From Ignavibacterium sp. (GTDB taxonomy: Bacteria; Bacteroidota; Ignavibacteria; Ignavibacteriales; Ignavibacteriaceae), in NCBI GenBank assembly GCA_032027145.1, contig JAVSMP010000001.1, forward strand, positions 834,903 through 898,902: a stretch of 64,000 nt of DNA. The letters are read 5' to 3'. Positions 3,091 through 41,261 of the stretch are shown one piece after another. The position numbers were made by a program, and so were the translations under genes. Position 1 is the first letter of the stretch, and each line of letters opens with the position of its first letter. Below the pieces are notes generated by a model. It worked only from the letters and a program-made list of their open reading frames with translations, made no database searches and was not told the origin of the DNA.

Positions 3091-4245
3091 TCAATCAACT
3101 TTTTTAAAGACCATTTTAGTTTTTCCGCTGACAAGAGTCAATTTCATCTTATCAATTGAATAGCTAACTGTCTTTTGATCTAATGCGCTTACTACTGCTT
3201 TTTCTACCTTCATATTTTGACAACTCATAAGTGTTCCAAGCAATGCACCAAAAGAAATTTTATCGCCCGATACTGTGATATTTCCGGAAAAACTATTACA
3301 ACCAGCATGCCCGTTAAATCTCATATCGGATAAAACAAATTCAAATTGCGGAGCACCTTTTTGCAGTTTCTCTTTTTTTAGATTGATGCCGGTCATTTCT
3401 TCCATTACCCAGATATCATATAAACGCAGGTCAGCAAGAAATTTTCCACATCCATCAAAGGCTTGAAATTTTTCATCAGCCGATTTTTTTGCTTCTACTC
3501 TAACTTTATATGGGAATATTTCTCCGGACATATTATCCTGGCAGTTTTCCCTGATCAGAGTAATTATAAGCTCTCCTGATTCGGATTTTGATCTGTACAA
3601 AGTTAGATCCTGATTTTTAATACCTTCAACTGATGGGGCTGAAACTGTCCATCCATCCATCATTGAAAAAACAAAGTTCTTTTCAAGATCAAGCTCTAAT
3701 GTCCAGTTTGGCTCATTCCCTCTGCCAAAGAAGTCAATACCATCAACAAACTTTTTCTGGTAAAATTCAGGATTCAGTTCAGTCTTTTCTTTCATGGGCT
3801 GATCTTTATCATTGTCAATAGATTCATCAAATTTTTTCACAGTGCTCATATCTTTTTTCAACATATACTTTGCTTCAACAGAGGATTCAAATCGCTCACC
3901 GTATTCATTTAAGCGGATCAGGTTTTTAGATCCGATTAAATACAATTTATCTTCATCTGCTCCACTTAACATAATAACAGAGTCAGATTCAAAAGTCCAG
4001 CTTCCCTCATCAACCAGGGCTTCTTCATCTCTTCCTTTATAAAAAGATCTTTCCTTAAATGTATAATCATCTTTTAAGTTAAGCTGATAATCAATTTCTT
4101 CACAATCATTACAAGGGAATACACCAAGCCAAATTCCGTTTGTTATAAACTGAACCTGCTTTTGATCTGGTATGAAATCAGGACCAGATGAACATCCGAT
4201 ATAAACAACAGCGATAAACAGAGATAGTATAATAGTTTTTTTCAT
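3091..4245 (-). CDS. NlpE-like / META-domain lipoprotein
   Basis: A 384-residue predicted lipoprotein: a hydrophobic leader and lipobox YIGC (C18). Residues ~35-130 resemble the NlpE N-terminal barrel, including a CNDC Cys-x-x-Cys as in NlpE. The middle (~165-275, GRGNEPNWTLELDLEKNF, DGCGKFLADL) resembles the membrane-associated domain often found with META. Residues ~283-384 are a META/HslJ domain with the MRFNGHAGCNSFSG hallmark. NlpE and META proteins are linked to envelope stress, copper and heat tolerance in other bacteria; the role here is inferred. An AAGGAG ribosome site precedes the ATG. It is monocistronic, with a clear terminator. Confidence 0.8.
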   Translation of the reverse strand: MKKTIILSLFIAVVYIGCSSGPDFIPDQKQVQFITNGIWLGVFPCNDCEEIDYQLNLKDDYTFKERSFYKGRDEEALVDEGSWTFESDSVIMLSGADEDKLYLIGSKNLIRLNEYGERFESSVEAKYMLKKDMSTVKKFDESIDNDKDQPMKEKTELNPEFYQKKFVDGIDFFGRGNEPNWTLELDLEKNFVFSMMDGWTVSAPSVEGIKNQDLTLYRSKSESGELIITLIRENCQDNMSGEIFPYKVRVEAKKSADEKFQAFDGCGKFLADLRLYDIWVMEEMTGINLKKEKLQKGAPQFEFVLSDMRFNGHAGCNSFSGNITVSGDKISFGALLGTLMSCQNMKVEKAVVSALDQKTVSYSIDKMKLTLVSGKTKMVFKKVD

Positions 4246-4451
4246 AAATGTTTTCTCCTTTAGATGAATTGTCTAAGTAATTTAAATGCTCTTTGAATAA
4301 TATATACAAAAAAATCAAATATTATACCGATAAAACCTTATTGTTTAAGCAGTAAAAAATCAATTAGATATATAATCTTAGTAAAATTGGGCTTTATTGC
4401 AGGAAGAACTTACAGTGTTGAAAAATTTTTTATAACTGCTGATGTGTTGAT

Positions 4452-4480
4452 AAAAAAACGCATCTTGTAAATAAGATGCG
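4452..4480 (-). terminator. Terminator of the sulfur/thioredoxin operon
   Basis: A perfect 8-bp stem, CGCATCTT/AAGATGCG at 4459-4480 with a six-base loop, is followed on the minus strand by seven T (A-run at 4452-4458). It sits about 25 bases past the thioredoxin stop and ends the minus-strand operon 5913-4507. Confidence 0.9.
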
Positions 4481-4506
4481 CTTTATCTTATTAAGCTTAT
4501 GAAAGA

Positions 4507-4869
4507 TTAAGATGCTTTAATTAATAATTCATTTTCGATTGCTTGTTTTAAGGATTCCTTTGGAAGAGCACCCACAGCCATCTTTGGCTGTCCAACTACC
4601 GGAACAAATAGTATAGATGGAATACTTCTGATTCCAAATACTGCTCCTAATTCTTGTTCTTCATCAGTATTTACTTTATAAATGTTTATCTTGCCTTTGT
4701 ATTCTTCGGAAAGCTCCTCGAGTACCGGCCCAACCATTCTGCACGGACCACACCATGGCGCCCAAAAATCTATAATTGCAGGAAGCTCTCCATTAAATTT
4801 CCAATCCTGATTTTTTTCATAATCAAAAACTTTTGTTAAAAAAGTTTCTTTCGTTAACGACTCAGTCAT
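4507..4869 (-). CDS. trxA: Thioredoxin
   Basis: A 120-residue thioredoxin. The active site WCGPC is at residues 39-43, preceded by AIIDFWAP and followed by the cis-proline region IRSIPSILFV. No signal peptide, so a cytosolic dithiol reductase. It is the last gene of a minus-strand run (rhodanese, DUF6132, DUF302, thioredoxin) with a 59-base gap to DUF302 and its own terminator. The context suggests thiol/sulfane-sulfur handling rather than only general redox duty. The N-terminus (MTESLTKETFLTKVFDYEKNQDW) is slightly longer than that of E. coli TrxA. Confidence 0.93.
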   Translation of the reverse strand: MTESLTKETFLTKVFDYEKNQDWKFNGELPAIIDFWAPWCGPCRMVGPVLEELSEEYKGKINIYKVNTDEEQELGAVFGIRSIPSILFVPVVGQPKMAVGALPKESLKQAIENELLIKAS

Positions 4870-4928
4870 TTATTTGCCTTTCTGTTTTATTCCTTTATTT
4901 ATTTTAAAATATATTGAAGCGTATTTGT

Positions 4929-5312
4929 TTAAACTGCTTTAAAAACCCGCTCTAATTTTTTCTTAACTTCTTCTGCAACCGTTTTGACCTTTGGATTGTC
5001 TATTACTGCTGTCATAATCATCGGATCAAAAACCGAAACAACTGTTTTATCATCTTTTTCATAAACGATTACATTACAAGGTAAAAGCAAACCAATCTCT
5101 TCCTCAGCCTGCAGCACCTGATGTGCAAAAGGCGGATTGCAAGCGCCAAGAATAGTGTAATTCTTGAAATCAACATCAATCTTTTTCTTTAATGTATCTT
5201 TAACATTAATAGTTGTTAGAACTCCGAACCCTTCTTTTTTCAACTCTTCAGTTACTTTATCAATTGCCTGATCAAAGCTATAATCTGTTGTTTTAGAAAA
5301 ACCGTATTGCAT
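4929..5312 (-). CDS. DUF302 family protein
   Basis: A 127-residue soluble protein with the DUF302 pattern: FSKTTDYSFDQAIDKVTEELKKEGFGVLT at the N-terminus, the DFKNYTILGACNPPFAHQVL core, then GLLLPCNVIVYE. DUF302 proteins recur next to rhodaneses and thioredoxins in sulfur-oxidising and anaerobic bacteria. Their biochemical role is not established; the conserved cysteines (GACNPP, LLPCN) fit thiol chemistry. The ATG overlaps the stop of the DUF6132 gene by one base (TAATG), so translation is probably coupled. Confidence 0.85.
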   Translation of the reverse strand: MQYGFSKTTDYSFDQAIDKVTEELKKEGFGVLTTINVKDTLKKKIDVDFKNYTILGACNPPFAHQVLQAEEEIGLLLPCNVIVYEKDDKTVVSVFDPMIMTAVIDNPKVKTVAEEVKKKLERVFKAV

Positions 5313-5548
5313 TATTTTATTTCCTCTGCTTCCTGTTTTTTATTTTTTTTAAAAATTTGTTTCCAATCAATTAACAAAAAACCGGCAGAGGCTCCATAGA
5401 TAGTACTGATATATGGATTTCCGGAAATCGGGCAGCTGCCGTTGCAGCCGATATAATGATAATAAGCATATCCCGCAGTAGCGCCGGCTAAAACCGGAAA
5501 AATACGCTTTGTCCATTTCCATATTATTTCAAACCTGTTGCGTTCCAA
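5312..5548 (-). CDS. DUF6132 small membrane protein
   Basis: A 78-residue protein with a hydrophobic hairpin: FPVLAGATAGYAYYHYIGC, then a CNGSCPISGNPY loop and IYGASAGFLLIDW, ending in a lysine-rich tail. The GCxGxCPISxNP loop is characteristic of the DUF6132 (YtxH/rhodanese-associated) family. Function unknown. The gene overlaps the upstream rhodanese by 25 bases and couples to DUF302 by a one-base overlap, so the three are surely one transcript. The paired cysteines in the loop suggest metal or thiol binding; this is inference. Confidence 0.75.
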   Translation of the reverse strand: MERNRFEIIWKWTKRIFPVLAGATAGYAYYHYIGCNGSCPISGNPYISTIYGASAGFLLIDWKQIFKKNKKQEAEEIK

Positions 5549-5913
5549 CGAACCATTCCTCCGCTTAAATTTGTAGCATTAAATCCCATTTTCTTTAGTT
5601 TAGATGCAGCATTAAGACTTCGGTTTCCGGTTTGACAGTAACAGATTATCTCTGCATCCTTAAACTTTTTCAATTCCTGTTCTTTTTCTTTTAAATCTGT
5701 AACGGGTATATGATAAGAGCCTTTAATTGAACTTTGTTTTCTTTCTCTTTCAGTTCTTACATCAAGAAAAACAACATTACGCTCTTTCTTTACCTTTGCA
5801 TAAGCATCAGCCGGCGAATATTGTTTAATTGATTTTATCAGGTAAACTTTTTTACCAATATAAAAGATGATAAGAGCAATAAATACATAAAGAAATATCT
5901 GTCCTGTTGTCAT
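5524..5913 (-). CDS. Membrane-anchored rhodanese-like protein
   Basis: A 129-residue protein with one N-terminal transmembrane helix (about residues 4-22) and a single rhodanese domain. DVRTERER is the CH2A-type start motif and CQTGNRS (C93) is the catalytic persulfide loop. Rhodanese cysteines carry sulfane sulfur; the anchor would place it at the cytoplasmic membrane. It is the first gene of the sulfur/thiol operon, followed by DUF6132, DUF302 and thioredoxin. A second cysteine, C91, lies two residues before the catalytic one and could form a disulfide with it. Confidence 0.85.
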   Translation of the reverse strand: MTTGQIFLYVFIALIIFYIGKKVYLIKSIKQYSPADAYAKVKKERNVVFLDVRTERERKQSSIKGSYHIPVTDLKEKEQELKKFKDAEIICYCQTGNRSLNAASKLKKMGFNATNLSGGMVRWNATGLK

Positions 5914-19382: not shown

Positions 19383-19466
19383 TTTTTCATTCCGTTAGAA
19401 TTTAATTCGGCAGAAACTTAAGAAATTATTTTGTGAGAAGCGAGAGGTAAAAACCAATATTTGTAG

Positions 19467-36599: not shown

Positions 36600-37088
36600 T
36601 TAGTGATGATGATGTCCGCCTGGTCCGTGAACATGACCGTGTGCTAATTCTTCTACAGTAGCATCTCTTACATCCACGAGTTCTAAATCAAAATTTAAAT
36701 TCATTCCGGCAAAAGGATGATTAAAATCGATTGTTATTTCATCATCATTTACTTCTATAATAGTAAAAGGCATTTGAACACCATCCGGATTACTTGCCAT
36801 ATATTCCATCCCGACTTCTAAAACAAAATCCTCCGGAAAATTTTCCTTTCCGACAACCTGCACTATTTGTTCATTATAATTTCCATAAGCATCAGCTGCA
36901 TCCAATCTTAACTGCTTTTTTGTGCCTATCATCATTACACTAACTGCTTCCTCAAGTTTTGGTAAAACCATTCCCTTTCCGCTAATGTATGAAAACGATC
37001 CGCCATGATCAGTTGAATCTAAAACATTACCAGCATCATCAGTTAATGTAAAATTTAAGGTAACAACTTTATTTATTTCTATCGGCAT
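36600..37088 (-). CDS. slyD: SlyD-type FKBP peptidyl-prolyl isomerase
   Basis: A 162-residue protein. The FKBP fold opens with VVTLNFTLTDDAGNVLDSTD and carries the inserted chaperone flap (AYGNYNEQIVQVVGKENFPED) that marks SlyD. The C-terminus is a metal-binding His-rich tail (HGHVHGPGGHHHH). Roles known for SlyD: prolyl isomerisation, chaperoning, nickel binding for hydrogenase maturation. No hydrogenase gene is in the window. Monocistronic with a strong terminator. Confidence 0.9.
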   Translation of the reverse strand: MPIEINKVVTLNFTLTDDAGNVLDSTDHGGSFSYISGKGMVLPKLEEAVSVMMIGTKKQLRLDAADAYGNYNEQIVQVVGKENFPEDFVLEVGMEYMASNPDGVQMPFTIIEVNDDEITIDFNHPFAGMNLNFDLELVDVRDATVEELAHGHVHGPGGHHHH

Positions 37089-37283
37089 TTTGTATCCTTA
37101 TTGTTTTTAATTGACGCTGCATAATAGAGAAAGTGGAAAAGAAATAAAAAGAAAAATTACTAGTAAAGGTTAGAAATTAATTAAAGAAATTTATCTGATA
37201 GTTTTAGAACTATACTGAATTAGTTAAATTTGATTTGTAAAGAAACTCTGATAGTTAATAATATCCGAAAGAATTAAACTCCA

Positions 37284-37424
37284 TTGAAAGAGTACCACAA
37301 TATTAGGACTATTAACGGAAGCATTAATGTTACGGCAGCAGCCCGTTCATTATCCGAACAACCGGAAGTTAAGCGTTTACTTATTAAAGCTGAATCTTCA
37401 CTTGCGTATCTAAAGATGAAATAA
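37284..37424 (+). CDS. Possible 46-residue peptide upstream of the methylase
   Basis: TTG 37284 to TAA 37424 encodes KEYHNIRTINGSINVTAAARSL, then EQPEVKRLLIKAESSLAYLKMK, a helical, charged peptide ending nine bases before the methylase ATG. The tight spacing suggests co-translation. No helix-turn-helix of a controller protein is clear. It could instead be a remnant of a larger gene. The rest of the 345-base gap holds no feature I recognise. Confidence 0.35.
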   Translation: MKEYHNIRTINGSINVTAAARSLSEQPEVKRLLIKAESSLAYLKMK

Positions 37425-37433
37425 AATAATTGA

Positions 37434-38474
37434 ATGAAAACTAATCTAATAAATATTATTTCAGACTCATTGAAATACTCAGATTTAAAAGAAATTAAAA
37501 GAAATTACTCTGCTCTGCTTAAAGAAGTTAAAGAGAGTAAAGAAGATATTTTAATCAGCGATGGCTATGTTTCTGTTACAAAAGATTTTTTATGCGGGGA
37601 AATAAATCAGATACTTGAAACTCAAACTCTTGAGCGGACAAAATATTATATTAAGCGATTATTGAAAAGCTTAACAGAAGAAAGACAAAGTAAAATTAAT
37701 GATCTTAATCTTAACCGCTGGAAAGAATATAGCGACATAATTACGGACAGCCTGTGGATACTGGATAAACGCGATAAAACAGGTGTTCACCACGCAGGTT
37801 ATTGGGGAAATTTTATTCCGCAAATTCCAAATCAACTTCTCAGAAGATATACAAAAAAAGAAGAGTGGATTTTAGATCCCTTTCTTGGCAGCGGAACTTC
37901 ATTAATTGAAGCACAAAGATTGGGCAGAAATGCTGTCGGTATAGAGCTTTCAAAAAAAGTATTGAATCAGACAAGAAAAATAATTTCTAAAGAAAAAAAT
38001 CAGCATTCTATTGAACTTAAATTTATAAACGGAGACAGCTCAAAAATTAATTTAAGAAATCACCTGGATGAATCAGGAATTAAGTCATTTCAATTTCAGA
38101 TATTTCATCCACCGTATTGGGATATTATAAAATTCAGTAATAATAAATCTGACTTATCCAACAGTAAATCAATCGAAGAATTTATAGCTAAATTTGGAAG
38201 TGTATTAGATAATTGTCTTCCTCATCTTGATAAAAAAAGATTTGCAGCAGTTGTTATAGGCGATAAATATTCTGATGGTGAATGGATTCCGCTGGGATTT
38301 TATGTAATGCAGGAATTTTTAAAACGCAGAATGATTTTAAAATCTGTAATCGTTAAAAACTTTGATGAAACTACTGCAAAGAGAAATCAGAAAGAGCTAT
38401 GGCGTTATCGTGCATTAGCCGGTGGATTTTATGTGTTTAAACACGAGTATGTTTTTGTGTTTCAGAAGAAATGA
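37434..38474 (+). CDS. Putative type II DNA methyltransferase (N4/N6-amino)
   Basis: A 346-residue protein. DPFLGSGTSLIEAQRLG from D148 is the SAM-binding motif I (FxGxG); HPPYW at 225-229 is the catalytic motif IV in which the usual D/N/S is H. Motif I precedes motif IV. The N-terminal ~110 residues are helical and may be the target-recognition part, including GVHHAGYWGNFIPQIPNQL, typical of amino-methylases. The gene is followed, after a repeat array and a RAYT, by a nuclease-like gene, so a restriction-modification pair is inferred. Its last ~54 coding bases are repeated twice at 39343 and 39523. Confidence 0.8.
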   Translation: MKTNLINIISDSLKYSDLKEIKRNYSALLKEVKESKEDILISDGYVSVTKDFLCGEINQILETQTLERTKYYIKRLLKSLTEERQSKINDLNLNRWKEYSDIITDSLWILDKRDKTGVHHAGYWGNFIPQIPNQLLRRYTKKEEWILDPFLGSGTSLIEAQRLGRNAVGIELSKKVLNQTRKIISKEKNQHSIELKFINGDSSKINLRNHLDESGIKSFQFQIFHPPYWDIIKFSNNKSDLSNSKSIEEFIAKFGSVLDNCLPHLDKKRFAAVVIGDKYSDGEWIPLGFYVMQEFLKRRMILKSVIVKNFDETTAKRNQKELWRYRALAGGFYVFKHEYVFVFQKK

Positions 38475-38496
38475 ATAGATGTAATTAAAAGGTAGG

Positions 38497-38514
38497 CGCA
38501 AGCTTCAGCTTGCG
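38497..38514. repeat. Palindrome P1 (three copies)
   Basis: CGCAAGCT-TC-AGCTTGCG, an 8-bp stem with a two-base loop, lies 22 bases after the methylase stop. Copies occur at 39419-39436 and 39599-39616 within larger duplications. Confidence 0.9.
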
Positions 38515-38557
38515 GGATTAGGTTACAAAGTTATTAAATATTTATTATTCGTATTTG

Positions 38558-38717
38558 CTCAACCTGAAGGTTGAGGCTACCGTTGTTCTGATTCATTTGT
38601 AATATGAGATATAATTTTGAAATTATTGCTCAACCTAAAGGTTGAGGCTACCGTCCTTCAGGTTCATTTGTATTATGAAATATAATTTGGAAATTAATGC
38701 TCAACCTAAAAATTGAG
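38558..38717. repeat. Tandem 71-bp units with palindrome P2, left of RAYT
   Basis: CTCAACCT-GA/AA-AGGTTGAG palindromes start at 38558, 38629 and 38700, exactly 71 bases apart; the third is degenerate (AAATTGAG). Each 71-bp unit also contains TTCATTTGT-A-TATGA(A/G)ATATAATTT, a copy of the nuclease gene's start region at 39696-39715. So the array is made of palindrome plus truncated nuclease 5' end. Confidence 0.9.
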
Positions 38718-38730
38718 TTTACCGTAAACA

Positions 38731-39207
38731 ATGAAGCGAATAAGAGAAAACAAACATCGATTAGCTGCAGAAATTTACATTGGCGAAAGACCAATTGCTT
38801 TTACCTTATGTTTAAAAGGAAGGGTAAGTTATTTCACAAATGAAAGTGCATTTAAATATTTTGAAAAAGTACTATTAGAAGAATTAAAACATTATAATTG
38901 CTCTGCGTTTGTTTATTTATTTATGCCTGATCATTTGCATTTAGTGTTGGCAGGAAATGAACCAGACTCCAATATTAAAAAGTGCCTTGAGATGTTTAAA
39001 CAAAAAACAGGATTTTATTTAAGTAAGAGCAAAGCAAATGTAAGCTGGCAAAAAGATTATTATGATCACATTTTAAGAAGTGAAGAAAATCTGGAAATAC
39101 ATCTAAAATATATACTCAATAACCCTGTTCGAGCTGGTATTGTGAACTATTGGAAAAAATATCCTTACATTGGTTCAACAGTTTATAATTTATATGAATG
39201 GGAATAG
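38731..39207 (+). mobile_element. RAYT / IS200-like transposase between methylase and nuclease
   Basis: A 158-residue Y1 transposase, shorter than the first RAYT in this window and only distantly similar. LFMPDHLHLVLAGNE holds the HUH motif (HLH). HLKYILNNPVRAGIVNYW holds the catalytic tyrosine helix. The N-terminus KRIRENKHRLAAEIYIGERPIAFTLC lacks the usual leading basic RRxN motif. Flanked on both sides by P2 palindromes at 39229 and 38700, so it is the probable resident enzyme of this REP family. Frame intact. Confidence 0.88.
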
Positions 39208-39228
39208 TGCAATTATTATGCGTTATTG

Positions 39229-39317
39229 CTCAACCTAAAGGTTGAGGCTACCGTCTTTCTGATTCATTTGTAATGTGAAATATAATTTGGAAATTATTGC
39301 TCAACCTGAAGGTTGAG
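39229..39317. repeat. P2 palindrome units right of RAYT
   Basis: P2 palindromes at 39229-39246 and 39300-39317, again 71 bases apart, with the nuclease-start copy (TTCATTTGTAATGTGAAATATAATTTGG) between. These continue the array seen left of the transposase gene. Confidence 0.9.
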
Positions 39318-39660
39318 GCTACCATTCTTACAGATTCTTGTAGGTGGATTTTATGTGTTTAGACACGAGTATATTTTTGTGTTTCAGAAGAAATGAATAG
39401 ATGTAATTAAAAGGTAGGCGCAAGCTTCAGCTTGCGGGATTAGGTTACAAAGTTATTAAATATTTATTATGCTTATTTGCTCAACCTGAAGGTTGAGGCT
39501 ACCATTCTTACAGATTCTTGTAGGTGGATTTTATGTGTTTAGACACGAGTATATTTTTGTGTTTCAGAAGAAATGAATAGATGTAATTAAAAGGTAGGCG
39601 CAAGCTTCAGCTTGCGGGATTAGGTTACAAAGTTATTAAATATTTATTATTCGTATTTGC
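39301..39660. repeat. Two 180-bp direct repeats containing the methylase 3' end
   Basis: 39301-39480 and 39481-39660 agree at 178 of 180 bases. Each holds P2, then a copy of the methylase 3' end (GGTGGATTTTATGTGTTTAGACACGAG... to the TGA stop), the following spacer and P1. Compared with the true gene end at 38421-38474 the copies read GGFYVFRHEYIFVFQKK instead of GGFYVFKHEYVFVFQKK. Confidence 0.93.
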
Positions 39661-39705
39661 TCAACCTGAAGGTTGAGGCTACCGTCCTTCAGGTTCATTT
39701 GTATT

Positions 39706-40347
39706 ATGAAATATAATTTAGAAGAAATTGAAATTGAATTAAAAAAAAGATTAATCTATCCTTATAAATGGGGACAAAAACAGAACGATAACTTCGATAA
39801 ACAAACAAATTTTATTTATCATACTTTTTTGTTTGAAGAACTTCTTAAAGAAATTGAATCAAGATTTAAATCTGAAAAAGAATATGATCTTTATTTCAAT
39901 TACTCAATTAACCGGTGGTATAACTTCTGGTCAGCACAAGCTGTTGAAGATATATTCTGCTCGCTGCCAAACGTTAAACCAGCCCTGGATGATAAAGACA
40001 AACTGATTGACTTTACAATTCGGGGAGAGGCATTTGATCATAAAACATCAATCTTTCCGAAAAATTTTCCTTATAAAATTGATGATGCAATTAAAAAAAC
40101 CGATGAATTGATTAGGTGGTTATACAAAAATCAATCACAGCAGCAGCGTAAGCATTATAAAAGCAGATTGTTTATTATTCTTTATTCTGCAGATGGGGAG
40201 CATTGGAAATTAAAATCAGAAATTGGCTGGCTTAAAGAACGAATCGAAAAATATATGCTCGGCTTTAATCCGAATTTTTTGCTTAAGTTTAATTTTGAAA
40301 AAGATAAACCAACTCTGGCAGATGTTATTTGGGCTATAAAAAAATAG
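39706..40347 (+). CDS. Putative type II restriction endonuclease
   Basis: A 213-residue protein from ATG 39706 (an upstream reading from 39673 runs through repeat sequence and is not preferred). The core IDFTIRGEAFDHKTS has D102, then D111-x-K113, compatible with a PD-(D/E)xK nuclease site. Preceding helices (NYSINRWYNFWSAQAVEDIFCSLPNV) and following IKKTDELIRWLYKNQSQQQRKHYKSRLFIILY fit small type II enzymes. No named family recognised; the function is inferred from the methylase before it. Its first codons (ATGAAATATAATTT) are the segment copied in the upstream repeats. Confidence 0.6.
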   Translation: MKYNLEEIEIELKKRLIYPYKWGQKQNDNFDKQTNFIYHTFLFEELLKEIESRFKSEKEYDLYFNYSINRWYNFWSAQAVEDIFCSLPNVKPALDDKDKLIDFTIRGEAFDHKTSIFPKNFPYKIDDAIKKTDELIRWLYKNQSQQQRKHYKSRLFIILYSADGEHWKLKSEIGWLKERIEKYMLGFNPNFLLKFNFEKDKPTLADVIWAIKK

Positions 40348-40568
40348 TCTTGTAATTATTCATTATTTACAAAGCTGTTTAACAATTCTGTTGATAAAGT
40401 ATTCGCAACGTAGGCAGGAGTAATCAAGATTCTTAAATTGTTTTGGACAATAAATACATTTTCCCGCCAATTTTGTCAAAAGAAATTTTTCTCAGACCAG
40501 CAATTTGATTGAAGTAAGATTTCGGTTTTACTATTTTCAATCAGAAAAAAATAATAAAGATTATAATT

Positions 40569-41261
40569 ATGAGAAAAAAAATATTTTTAACCCTTTCAGT
40601 TGCTCTTTCTTTTTTTGTGCTGAGCTGTGGAGACAGCAGCAAAGACAGCTCTGATATTTCAAACAAAGATGCTTCCTCTGACACACAAAAAAGATACGGT
40701 ATTAAATCAGCAGTTGTTGAATATATAATAACAGGCTCACAGGAGGGAACCAAAACACTTTACTTTGATAAATGGGGAATGAGACAAGCTGAATATACCC
40801 GTTCTGTTTTGACTGTTAGCGGATTTAGCAAACCAATAAATATTGTAAACATTATTGACGGTGATTATCAATATATGATAAACATTGATCAGAACAGCGG
40901 AACAAAAACAAGAAACCCGGTCTTAAAATCTATGGATGAATTAAAAGGTCAAAAAGGTTTTAACGAGTTTGGAGAACAGATGCTCTTAAGTATCGGCGCA
41001 AATAAAATCGGTAAAGAAGAGTTTCTCGGAAAAGATTGTGATATTTATGAAATGCGCAGTACCGGAACTAAACTTTGGGTTTGGAAATGGATTACGTTGA
41101 AATCCGAGACAAACTCAAGAGGATTGGAGATAAATGTAATTGCAACCAGAATTAACGAAGGCTCCGTTCCAAAAGATAAGTTTACAATTCCTGAAAAAAT
41201 TACATTGAATGAAGTTGATCTTGATAATATTGAAAACGAAATGAGAGAAGAAAATAAATGA
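40569..41261 (+). CDS. Lipoprotein of unknown function
   Basis: A 230-residue predicted lipoprotein: MRKKIFLTLSVALSFFVLSC with the lipobox VLSC (C20), then a serine/aspartate-rich linker. The body is beta-rich (SAVVEYIITGSQEGTKTLYFDKWGMRQAEYT, IIDGDYQYMINID, FLGKDCDIYEM), a LolA/DUF4412-like pattern of periplasmic barrels, but I do not claim the family. Its stop overlaps the next start by four bases (ATGA), so it is coupled to the MBL-fold gene, an unusual pairing of an envelope lipoprotein and an RNA-processing-type enzyme. Confidence 0.7.
   Translation: MRKKIFLTLSVALSFFVLSCGDSSKDSSDISNKDASSDTQKRYGIKSAVVEYIITGSQEGTKTLYFDKWGMRQAEYTRSVLTVSGFSKPINIVNIIDGDYQYMINIDQNSGTKTRNPVLKSMDELKGQKGFNEFGEQMLLSIGANKIGKEEFLGKDCDIYEMRSTGTKLWVWKWITLKSETNSRGLEINVIATRINEGSVPKDKFTIPEKITLNEVDLDNIENEMREENK

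Follow-up and report, generated by a model that had tools for sequence, protein, structure and literature searches.

The window analysed here is a stretch of 64,000 nucleotides, to which all coordinates refer, from the 3,665,746-base, single-contig genome of an Ignavibacterium species. It contains a gene for a REP-associated tyrosine transposase (RAYT, also known as TnpA-REP) within an array of repetitive extragenic palindromes (REPs), located between the genes M and R of an apparent type II restriction-modification (R-M) system. M codes for a DNA methyltransferase and R for a putative restriction endonuclease. The two genes are separated by 1231 bases (M stop to R start), which hold nine intact GTAG-type REP palindromes (three of P1 and six of P2), one decayed P2 (P2*), and the RAYT gene. 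The 5'-to-3' order is M; P1; P2; R-start copy; P2; R-start copy; decayed P2; RAYT; P2; R-start copy; P2; M-end copy; P1; P2; M-end copy; P1; P2; R. The individual features are as follows.

37434..38474, + strand: M, N6/N4 DNA methyltransferase of the type II kind (Pfam N6_N4_Mtase, 6e-20; PADLOC MTase_II PDLC03351, 1.8e-135 over 4-346)
38492..38516, + strand: P1 copy 1, a REP with GTAG and hairpin (RNA fold -11.1 kcal/mol)
38557..38581, - strand: P2 copy 1, a REP with GTAG read on the - strand
38557..38627, + strand: 71-bp unit 1, P2 plus 22 nt plus a near copy of the R start (62 of 71 positions shared with unit 2, 65 of 71 with unit 3)
38628..38698, + strand: 71-bp unit 2, P2 plus the exact R start ATGAAATATAATTT at 38675
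Starts 38628, 39228, 39299, and 39479, - strand: P2 copies 2 to 5 (palindrome match)
38699..38723, - strand: P2*, a decayed P2 with 5 edits, just 5' of RAYT; weaker hairpin (-4.6 kcal/mol)
38699..39252, + strand: RAYT cassette (P2*-RAYT-P2), a block near-identical to that of the sister species, with identity dropping outside it
38731..39207, + strand: RAYT (TnpA-REP), 158 aa (NCBIfam NF047646 REP_Tyr_transpos, 89.2 bits, cut-off 80; Pfam Y1_Tnp, 4e-9)
39228..39298, + strand: 71-bp unit 3, P2 plus a near copy of the R start
39297..39503, + strand: first copy of the 180-bp tandem repeat, matching 39477-39683 save at 39471 and 39473
39343..39396, + strand: M-end copy 1, the last 54 nt of M (gene start absent), 2 edits
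39414..39438, + strand: P1 copy 2 (palindrome match)
39523..39576, + strand: M-end copy 2, the last 54 nt of M, 2 edits
39594..39618, + strand: P1 copy 3 (palindrome match)
39659..39683, - strand: P2 copy 6, 22 nt 5' of the R start codon
39706..40347, + strand: R, putative restriction endonuclease, 213 aa (from position, conserved residues, and weak fold matches)

RAYT gene and REP array

The place and identity of the RAYT gene between M and R agree with an earlier model-made interpretation of this DNA (the sequence-only reading), as does the presence of P2 palindromes on both sides of it. P2 (GCTCAACCTRAAGGTTGAGGCTACC) is found in six intact copies and P1 in three, and neither appears in 100 shuffles of the window. 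P1 and P2 represent one kind of element, a GTAG tetranucleotide with a hairpin, in opposite orientations, P1 on the + and P2 on the - strand; this relationship and the decayed P2 at 38699-38723 are absent from the earlier interpretation. Each P1-P2 pair is a head-head REP dimer with GTAG on the outside. GTAG hairpins number nine in 38492-39683 and one in the rest of the window, as expected for a REPtron. The lone GTAG-plus-hairpin sequence, GTAGCTCAGGACTCCAGTCCTGAG at 19463, is not a tRNA by ARAGORN; no tRNA is found in the 64-kb window, and Rfam searches of 37000-40700 reveal no known RNA element at gathering score.

The RAYT protein contains the motifs DHLH, WQKDYYDHILR, and YILNNP, as read from the sequence and compared with the tables of PMC6006769; the W, Q, D, H, and R of the REP-contact positions given in that work are all present in WQKDYYDHILR. 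It matches the E. coli TnpA-REP (PDB 4er8) at 9e-6. The gene is single-copy, with no second genome match at E 0.001, in line with the one full-length copy per REP type expected for a REPtron; Pfam Y1_Tnp has four matches in the whole genome. With a Y1/HUH transposase of the RAYT kind and GTAG REPs beside its gene, the locus qualifies, judging from its sequence, as a REPtron. It resembles the REPtrons of E. coli, Stenotrophomonas, and Pseudomonas in encoding a Y1 HUH protein, here of 158 residues, with DHLH, WQ, and YxxNP motifs, in the GTAG-plus-hairpin REPs adjoining the gene, in the HH-type dimers with GTAG outside, and in the tandem units that include flanking DNA, features described in PMC3733652, PMC3116915, and PMC2817692. 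Head-head dimers are preferred in most of the families covered by PMC3733652. In contrast to these REPtrons, the REPs of the window are practically confined to one locus, the nearest flanking REPs are co-oriented, and the site lies inside an R-M operon. RAYTs have been described as having inverted REPs on both flanks (PMC2817692); here, an inverted P1 (38492, +) and P2 (39228, -) bracket the gene, and its immediate neighbours, P2* and P2, share the same orientation.

By motif comparison, as opposed to a tree with the published subclasses, the window RAYT appears nearest to subclass 2.7 of the TnpA-Y1 proteins of PMC6006769, without being assigned to it. The similarities are the Y motif YI[LR][NQ]NP (here YILNNP), the WQ pair, an Asp at the E100 position, and long canonical GTAG REPs. 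However, its HUH motif is DHLH in place of [ND]HVH, and it has 158 residues versus a mean of 213 in that subclass. A phage or plasmid carrier for the gene was considered and rejected: IMG/VR contains no relative, and 72,556 plasmids yield 5 weak matches (23 to 41% identity).

The array contains two types of reiterated unit. The 71-bp units, previously taken to be exact tandem copies that each carry the 5' end of R, are exactly spaced, but their sequences are identical at only 62 to 65 of 71 positions among the three, and the copy of the R start is exact in one of them (38675) and has one mismatch in each of the others (ATGAGATATAATTT at 38604 and GTGAAATATAATTT at 39275). The two 180-bp direct repeats with the 3' end of M and P1 are as originally proposed, being identical at 178 of 180 positions and carrying the M end, then P1, then P2; over 162 nt, the two array copies match the real M end at 157 and 160 positions. 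The copied gene ends comprise 54 nt of the M end and about 14 nt of the R start, and no reading frame is altered. A similar organization has been described in Pseudomonas fluorescens SBW25, where ordered REPIN clusters are tandem repeats including flanking sequences and three higher-order clusters lie near three RAYTs (PMC3116915). Both systems have flank-REPIN-flank units in clusters adjoining RAYTs; in SBW25, however, many REPINs are dispersed, and in the window the flanks happen to be M and R ends. REP clusters reiterated in tandem together with flanking DNA are also reported in PMC3733652. Thus, although copies of both gene ends are indeed present, no special building of the array from R-M genes, as stated in the sequence-only reading, is needed, because published REP clusters reiterate flanking DNA in tandem; most simply, the gene pieces would be flanking DNA caught in ordinary reiteration.

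Ordinary dispersed REPs, the finding that the sequence-only reading had named as contrary to its own, can be ruled out as an explanation, since P2 is confined to the M-R array: all six matches at up to 3 mismatches in the 3.67-Mb genome are in the array, and none is outside it. A looser REP core has 11 genome matches (6 for the reversed-pattern control), of which nine are in the array, one is in another REP pair, and one is unlike a REP. This other pair, at L079:2031-2093 (G000:C1:914030), is the sole one with this core found elsewhere in the genome; its stems are unlike P1 and P2, and its partner differs in the last base. A draft genome of the same family (G338, 68% complete) has 16 REP-core matches, including several close dimers, an expanded REP population.

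The identity of M is clear from the profile matches listed above, and its ratio of nonsynonymous to synonymous substitution rates (dN/dS) versus the sister species is 0.09. R belongs to no Pfam or NCBIfam family, and its sole PDB sequence match has an E value of 0.16. Residues E81, D102, and D111-H112-K113 are invariant in a 26-row alignment and would fit a PD-(D/E)XK nuclease. For the structure model of R (pLDDT 90.9), the best Foldseek match is EcoO109I at E 0.09, which is weak; VIA-align gives a best Z of 4.0 to a CRISPR ancillary nuclease and ranks EcoO109I (Z 3.7) among unrelated chains. Judged by R, the genome has its closest named relatives among Ignavibacteriota genomes from metagenomes.

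Empty sites and the sister species

In two other members of the same genus (L137 and L138), nothing lies between the two genes: the stop of M and the start of R overlap in the four bases ATGA, reading AGAAATGAAAC and AAAAATGAAAC, respectively. The genes downstream of R, encoding a lipoprotein, a beta-CASP hydrolase, and citrate synthase, come in the same order in L136 to L138 and in L164. The ancestral M-R gap was most likely nil, and this would be why the copied flanks are gene ends.

The sister species (CP053447.1; L073, L136) contains an orthologous array with the same parts in a different arrangement. Edits allowed, it has nine P2-like, five R-start, and two M-end copies, compared to seven, three, and two in the window. 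The change in copy number that the sequence-only reading had anticipated is thus seen between species in the P2-like and R-start copies; intact P2 number six in both arrays, and the sister array has a single intact P1. The sister M gene seemingly has one extra T near its 3' end, which changes the last residues and could be a sequencing error.

Divergence from the sister species is uneven. The RAYT proteins are 98% identical, versus 87% for M and 89% for R; at the nucleotide level, the identity is 97.5% for RAYT and 84 to 88% for seven other genes. The rate of synonymous substitution (dS) is 0.108 for RAYT, 0.709 for M, 0.801 for R, and 0.558 to 0.717 for the lipoprotein, beta-CASP, citrate synthase, and FKBP genes, and 4-fold degenerate sites differ at 6 of 42 positions in RAYT versus 265 of 731 in the seven other genes (Fisher p 0.0027). 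In the alignment, the high identity begins at the decayed P2 and ends at the P2 that follows RAYT. The array is thus old and its RAYT cassette more recent than the divergence of the two species, as indicated by the low dS and by the identity being confined to the cassette. Interspecies transfer or conversion would account for the young cassette, and so would a pair of insertions from the same source. The RAYT dN/dS of 0.073 argues for purifying selection on the gene.

The three remaining junctions of this genus include, besides the two empty ones, L154, where the gap is occupied by other genes, for a HEPN protein and a nucleotidyltransferase, with that for an AAA_14/DUF4143 ATPase on the opposite strand (3860-5827, by Pfam). 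A partial second copy of the R start is found there at 4565, with 44 of 47 aligned bases identical outside a 2-base gap.

Y1 genes in other M-R junctions

Junctions were gathered by searching with R alone, which kept 80 R loci (854,703 bases) of 230 matches. In 30 of these loci, M lies upstream of R at a distance of up to 3 kb; it is downstream in 6 and was not found in 44, so that M and R are neighbours across evolutionary time, as a type II R-M system requires. Many of the 44 loci are from Flavobacteriia such as Lutibacter, and some end at contig ends; members of this R family may have other methylases as partners. The 30 loci, the window, and L010, L012, and L013 make up 34 junctions; this count leaves out the 50 R loci without an upstream M and the genomes G298, G309, G322, and G327, in which R is present and an M-R junction was not seen.

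A Y1 transposase gene or its remnant is found in 8 of the 34 junctions, and in all eight it is co-directional with M and R. Besides the window, these are as follows.

L136, same direction as M and R: sister species junction; RAYT in the orthologous array
L164: RAYT 49% identical to that of the window, with an inverted REP pair around it
L013: last part of a RAYT and a REP-like palindrome (by eye)
L139, L140, and L142: genes of another RAYT lineage with palindromic ends
L155: IS200-like Y1 gene

Pfam Y1_Tnp scores above its cut-off in all four junctions scanned (L139, L142, L155, and L164) as well as in the window. By NCBIfam, L139, L142, and L164 are RAYTs and L155 belongs to the IS200 family, while L140, at 75.1 bits, is below the cut-off of 80. 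From motif reading rather than a tree, the junction Y1 proteins look like three subclasses, nearest to 2.7, 2.1, and 1.2 of PMC6006769. The genes in L139, L140, and L142, with palindromic ends of tens of bases, resemble TIRtrons, RAYTs with long terminal inverted repeats (PMC3733652), and unlike the window RAYT belong to a different transposase lineage, being 16 to 24% identical to it in the aligned parts.

Counting one event per genus and lineage, which depends on the genus labels, there were at least four insertions: in the window and its sister; in L164 and L013; in L139, L140, and L142; and in L155, three of them apart from that of the window. A separate insertion in genus g8 is suggested by the empty sites in the genus of the window and by the 49% identity, versus 57 to 72% for six RAYTs without M or R beside them, rather than by the RAYT tree, which groups the window with its sister at a support of 88/76 but leaves 8 of its 13 internal branches open. 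A search of the 80 R loci with a Y1 profile found six genes, every one inside an M-R junction. This profile was built from the eight junction proteins and ten others; 20 further Y1 proteins of the family were hence used as queries on the same loci and gave no additional Y1 genes. Across the 25 genomes of the family in which the junction was assessed, Pfam Y1 matches total 99. A general preference of Y1 genes for R-M genes was considered and rejected: around 20 other Y1 genes of the family, with 29 of 39 flanking open reading frames (ORFs) scanned, no DNA methylase is among the Pfam families listed (25 of 82), and the M and R families of the window were excluded directly.

A strict scan of the 30 M-R loci for GTAG hairpins (stem of at least 7, no mismatch) finds nine in 11.5 kb of junction and two in 289.6 kb outside. 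All nine belong to L136 and L164, so that counting REPs in the junctions says little that the RAYT loci themselves do not. The scan misses imperfect REPs that are visible by eye in L150, L152, and L013. The L150 gap of about 283 bases contains, by eye, two palindromes and no RAYT: one is P1-like and interrupted by an insert, the other P2-like and immediately before R.

Other junctions contain further cargo. In genus g10 of GTDB (L010, L143, L145, L146, and L147), an ORF of about 138 codons lies between M and R, with a META domain identified by Pfam in L010 and by eye in the others. A seemingly shortened version (by eye) of the L010:1072-1485 META gene is found at L155:5173-5331, just before the IS200-like gene; the L155 junction may have been hit twice. 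L139:4758-5318 contains a short ORF without a Pfam family and a PIN-domain ORF, a possible toxin-antitoxin pair, the second of which runs into the palindrome of the next Y1 element.

Proposed insertion into the R-M operon and its implications

The observed gene contents, the empty site, the orthologous array with other unit numbers, and the younger RAYT cassette are best explained by a REPtron that probably inserted where M and R overlap as ATGA in a conserved type II R-M operon of the chromosome, which would have uncoupled the two genes, at a junction that appears to be a recurrent landing site for Y1 transposases in this bacterial family. In the likely order of events, a P1-P2 dimer would have arrived first at the M-R overlap, tandem duplication would then have reiterated it together with the adjoining gene ends, as in known REP clusters, and the REP-bounded RAYT cassette would have been exchanged or re-inserted later.

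Such an insertion keeps M whole and, by comparison with the empty sites, removes the overlap, which would have coupled translation of R to that of M. REPs between the genes of an operon are known from the classical case of the mal operon. Folded as a transcript, the right half of the array is more stable than its shuffles (z -4.4; 0 of 100 as good), and the left half has z -2.1 (6 of 200 as good). Promoter-like matches show no excess (17 in the array versus 17.4 in shuffles), and the only terminator-like sites are the three P1, on the - strand only. Separation of M from R expression by the palindromes is plausible. REPs have been discussed as elements that stabilize mRNA and aid Rho termination (PMC3733652, PMC2817692). 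As many as nine hairpins would be transcribed between M and R; these should favour the upstream over the downstream message and might thus keep R low relative to M. Less R than M would be safe for an R-M system, and such insertions could be tolerated or favoured; alternatively, the RAYT might gain stability by sitting in an addiction-like operon. The repeated landing of Y1 elements at M-R is probably explained by insertions that spare M and lower R or do R no harm.

Several points weigh against this explanation. REPs are hardly dispersed in the genome, unlike the high abundance usual for them, and those nearest to RAYT on either side (P2* and P2) are co-oriented, with the inverted P1 further out. 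That R is a nuclease is suggested only by where it lies, by its conserved residues, and by weak fold matches (best Z 4.0), and most of the RAYT tree is poorly resolved. The + strand of the array has no terminator-like site, the lowered expression of R is a prediction from sequence, and the succession of steps is a reconstruction. Many one-base gaps, maybe sequencing errors, are visible by eye in the sister array (CP053447.1).

The same data could reflect neutral insertion of a REP/RAYT unit, one of many in gaps between co-directional genes, with the recurrence at M-R being a coincidence or a sign of general permissiveness. REPs occur most often between unidirectional and convergent genes (PMC3733652), and the junction may simply be permissive, having also taken a META-domain gene (L010 by Pfam and four more gaps by eye) and the HEPN/nucleotidyltransferase pair and ATPase of L154. 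Nevertheless, with an assumed 3000 gaps, the expected number of Y1 genes in a given gap is 0.033 and the probability of three or more is 6e-6, rising to 1e-3 if 500 permissive gaps are assumed, and the six Y1 genes found in the 80 R loci are all inside the junction, which makes neutral insertion unlikely. Recruitment of the RAYT into a defence operon, as a functional unit with R-M, would agree with its dN/dS of 0.07, its co-directionality in 8 of 8 junctions across three Y1 subclasses by motif, and the view of TnpA-REP as domesticated and co-opted (PMC8266576). It is an improbable reading, given that 26 of the 34 junctions show no Y1 gene, that M-R of the same genus exists without one, that junction cargo is diverse, and that six related RAYTs (L026 and L109 to L113) have neither M nor R in their flanks, covered up to 1.5 kb.

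The remaining alternatives fare worse. The sequence-only reading had suggested that the array works as a switch or serves to regenerate the R-M operon; in such a device, recombination between the M-end direct repeats would loop out RAYT. The M-end/P1/P2 blocks at 38421-38582 and 39523-39684 are indeed direct repeats (160 of 162 identical) whose recombination would leave M-P1-P2-R, and unit numbers differ between the species. Yet M and R are intact at present, which leaves nothing to restore; the copies are gene ends only; there is no promoter inversion, change of frame, or excess of promoter-like matches; the array has no recombinase besides RAYT; and no collapsed form is seen in the five same-genus junctions, window included. 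A device of this kind seems even less probable than a functional unit. Acquisition of the entire M-RAYT-R block as one mobile R-M cassette comes last: R-M systems are known to move (PMC3031569), but R is followed by the same lipoprotein, beta-CASP hydrolase, and citrate synthase genes in L136 to L138 and L164, and M and R have diverged to the same degree as the genes around them, RAYT alone being the exception, so that horizontal acquisition is already largely refuted.

As an array, this locus is of a known kind, a REP cluster with its RAYT; what adds interest is the repeated occupation of one R-M junction by several Y1 lineages. A literature search reaching abstract openings at most found no earlier report of RAYT insertion into R-M operons or of repeated Y1 occupation of one R-M junction. 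A bolder proposal, which we offer only tentatively and consider doubtful, is that the M-R junction is a true landing pad, where Y1 transposases of three subclasses and toxin-antitoxin-like pairs settle repeatedly, the transposases always co-directional with the operon, and where their stay is selected, either because they uncouple and damp R or because a gene enclosed by the antidote M and the killer R could hardly be lost without the cell dying. The current view of RAYTs is that of domesticated, co-opted transposases kept for a host benefit that is still being worked out (PMC8266576). If true, the landing pad would offer one explanation for the persistence of single-copy RAYTs. Several Y1 lineages lodged between an antidote gene and its toxic partner provide a countable setting in which to ask what keeps RAYTs, and the coupled, split, and re-split R-M operons of this family represent a natural series for measuring how the M:R ratio is set.

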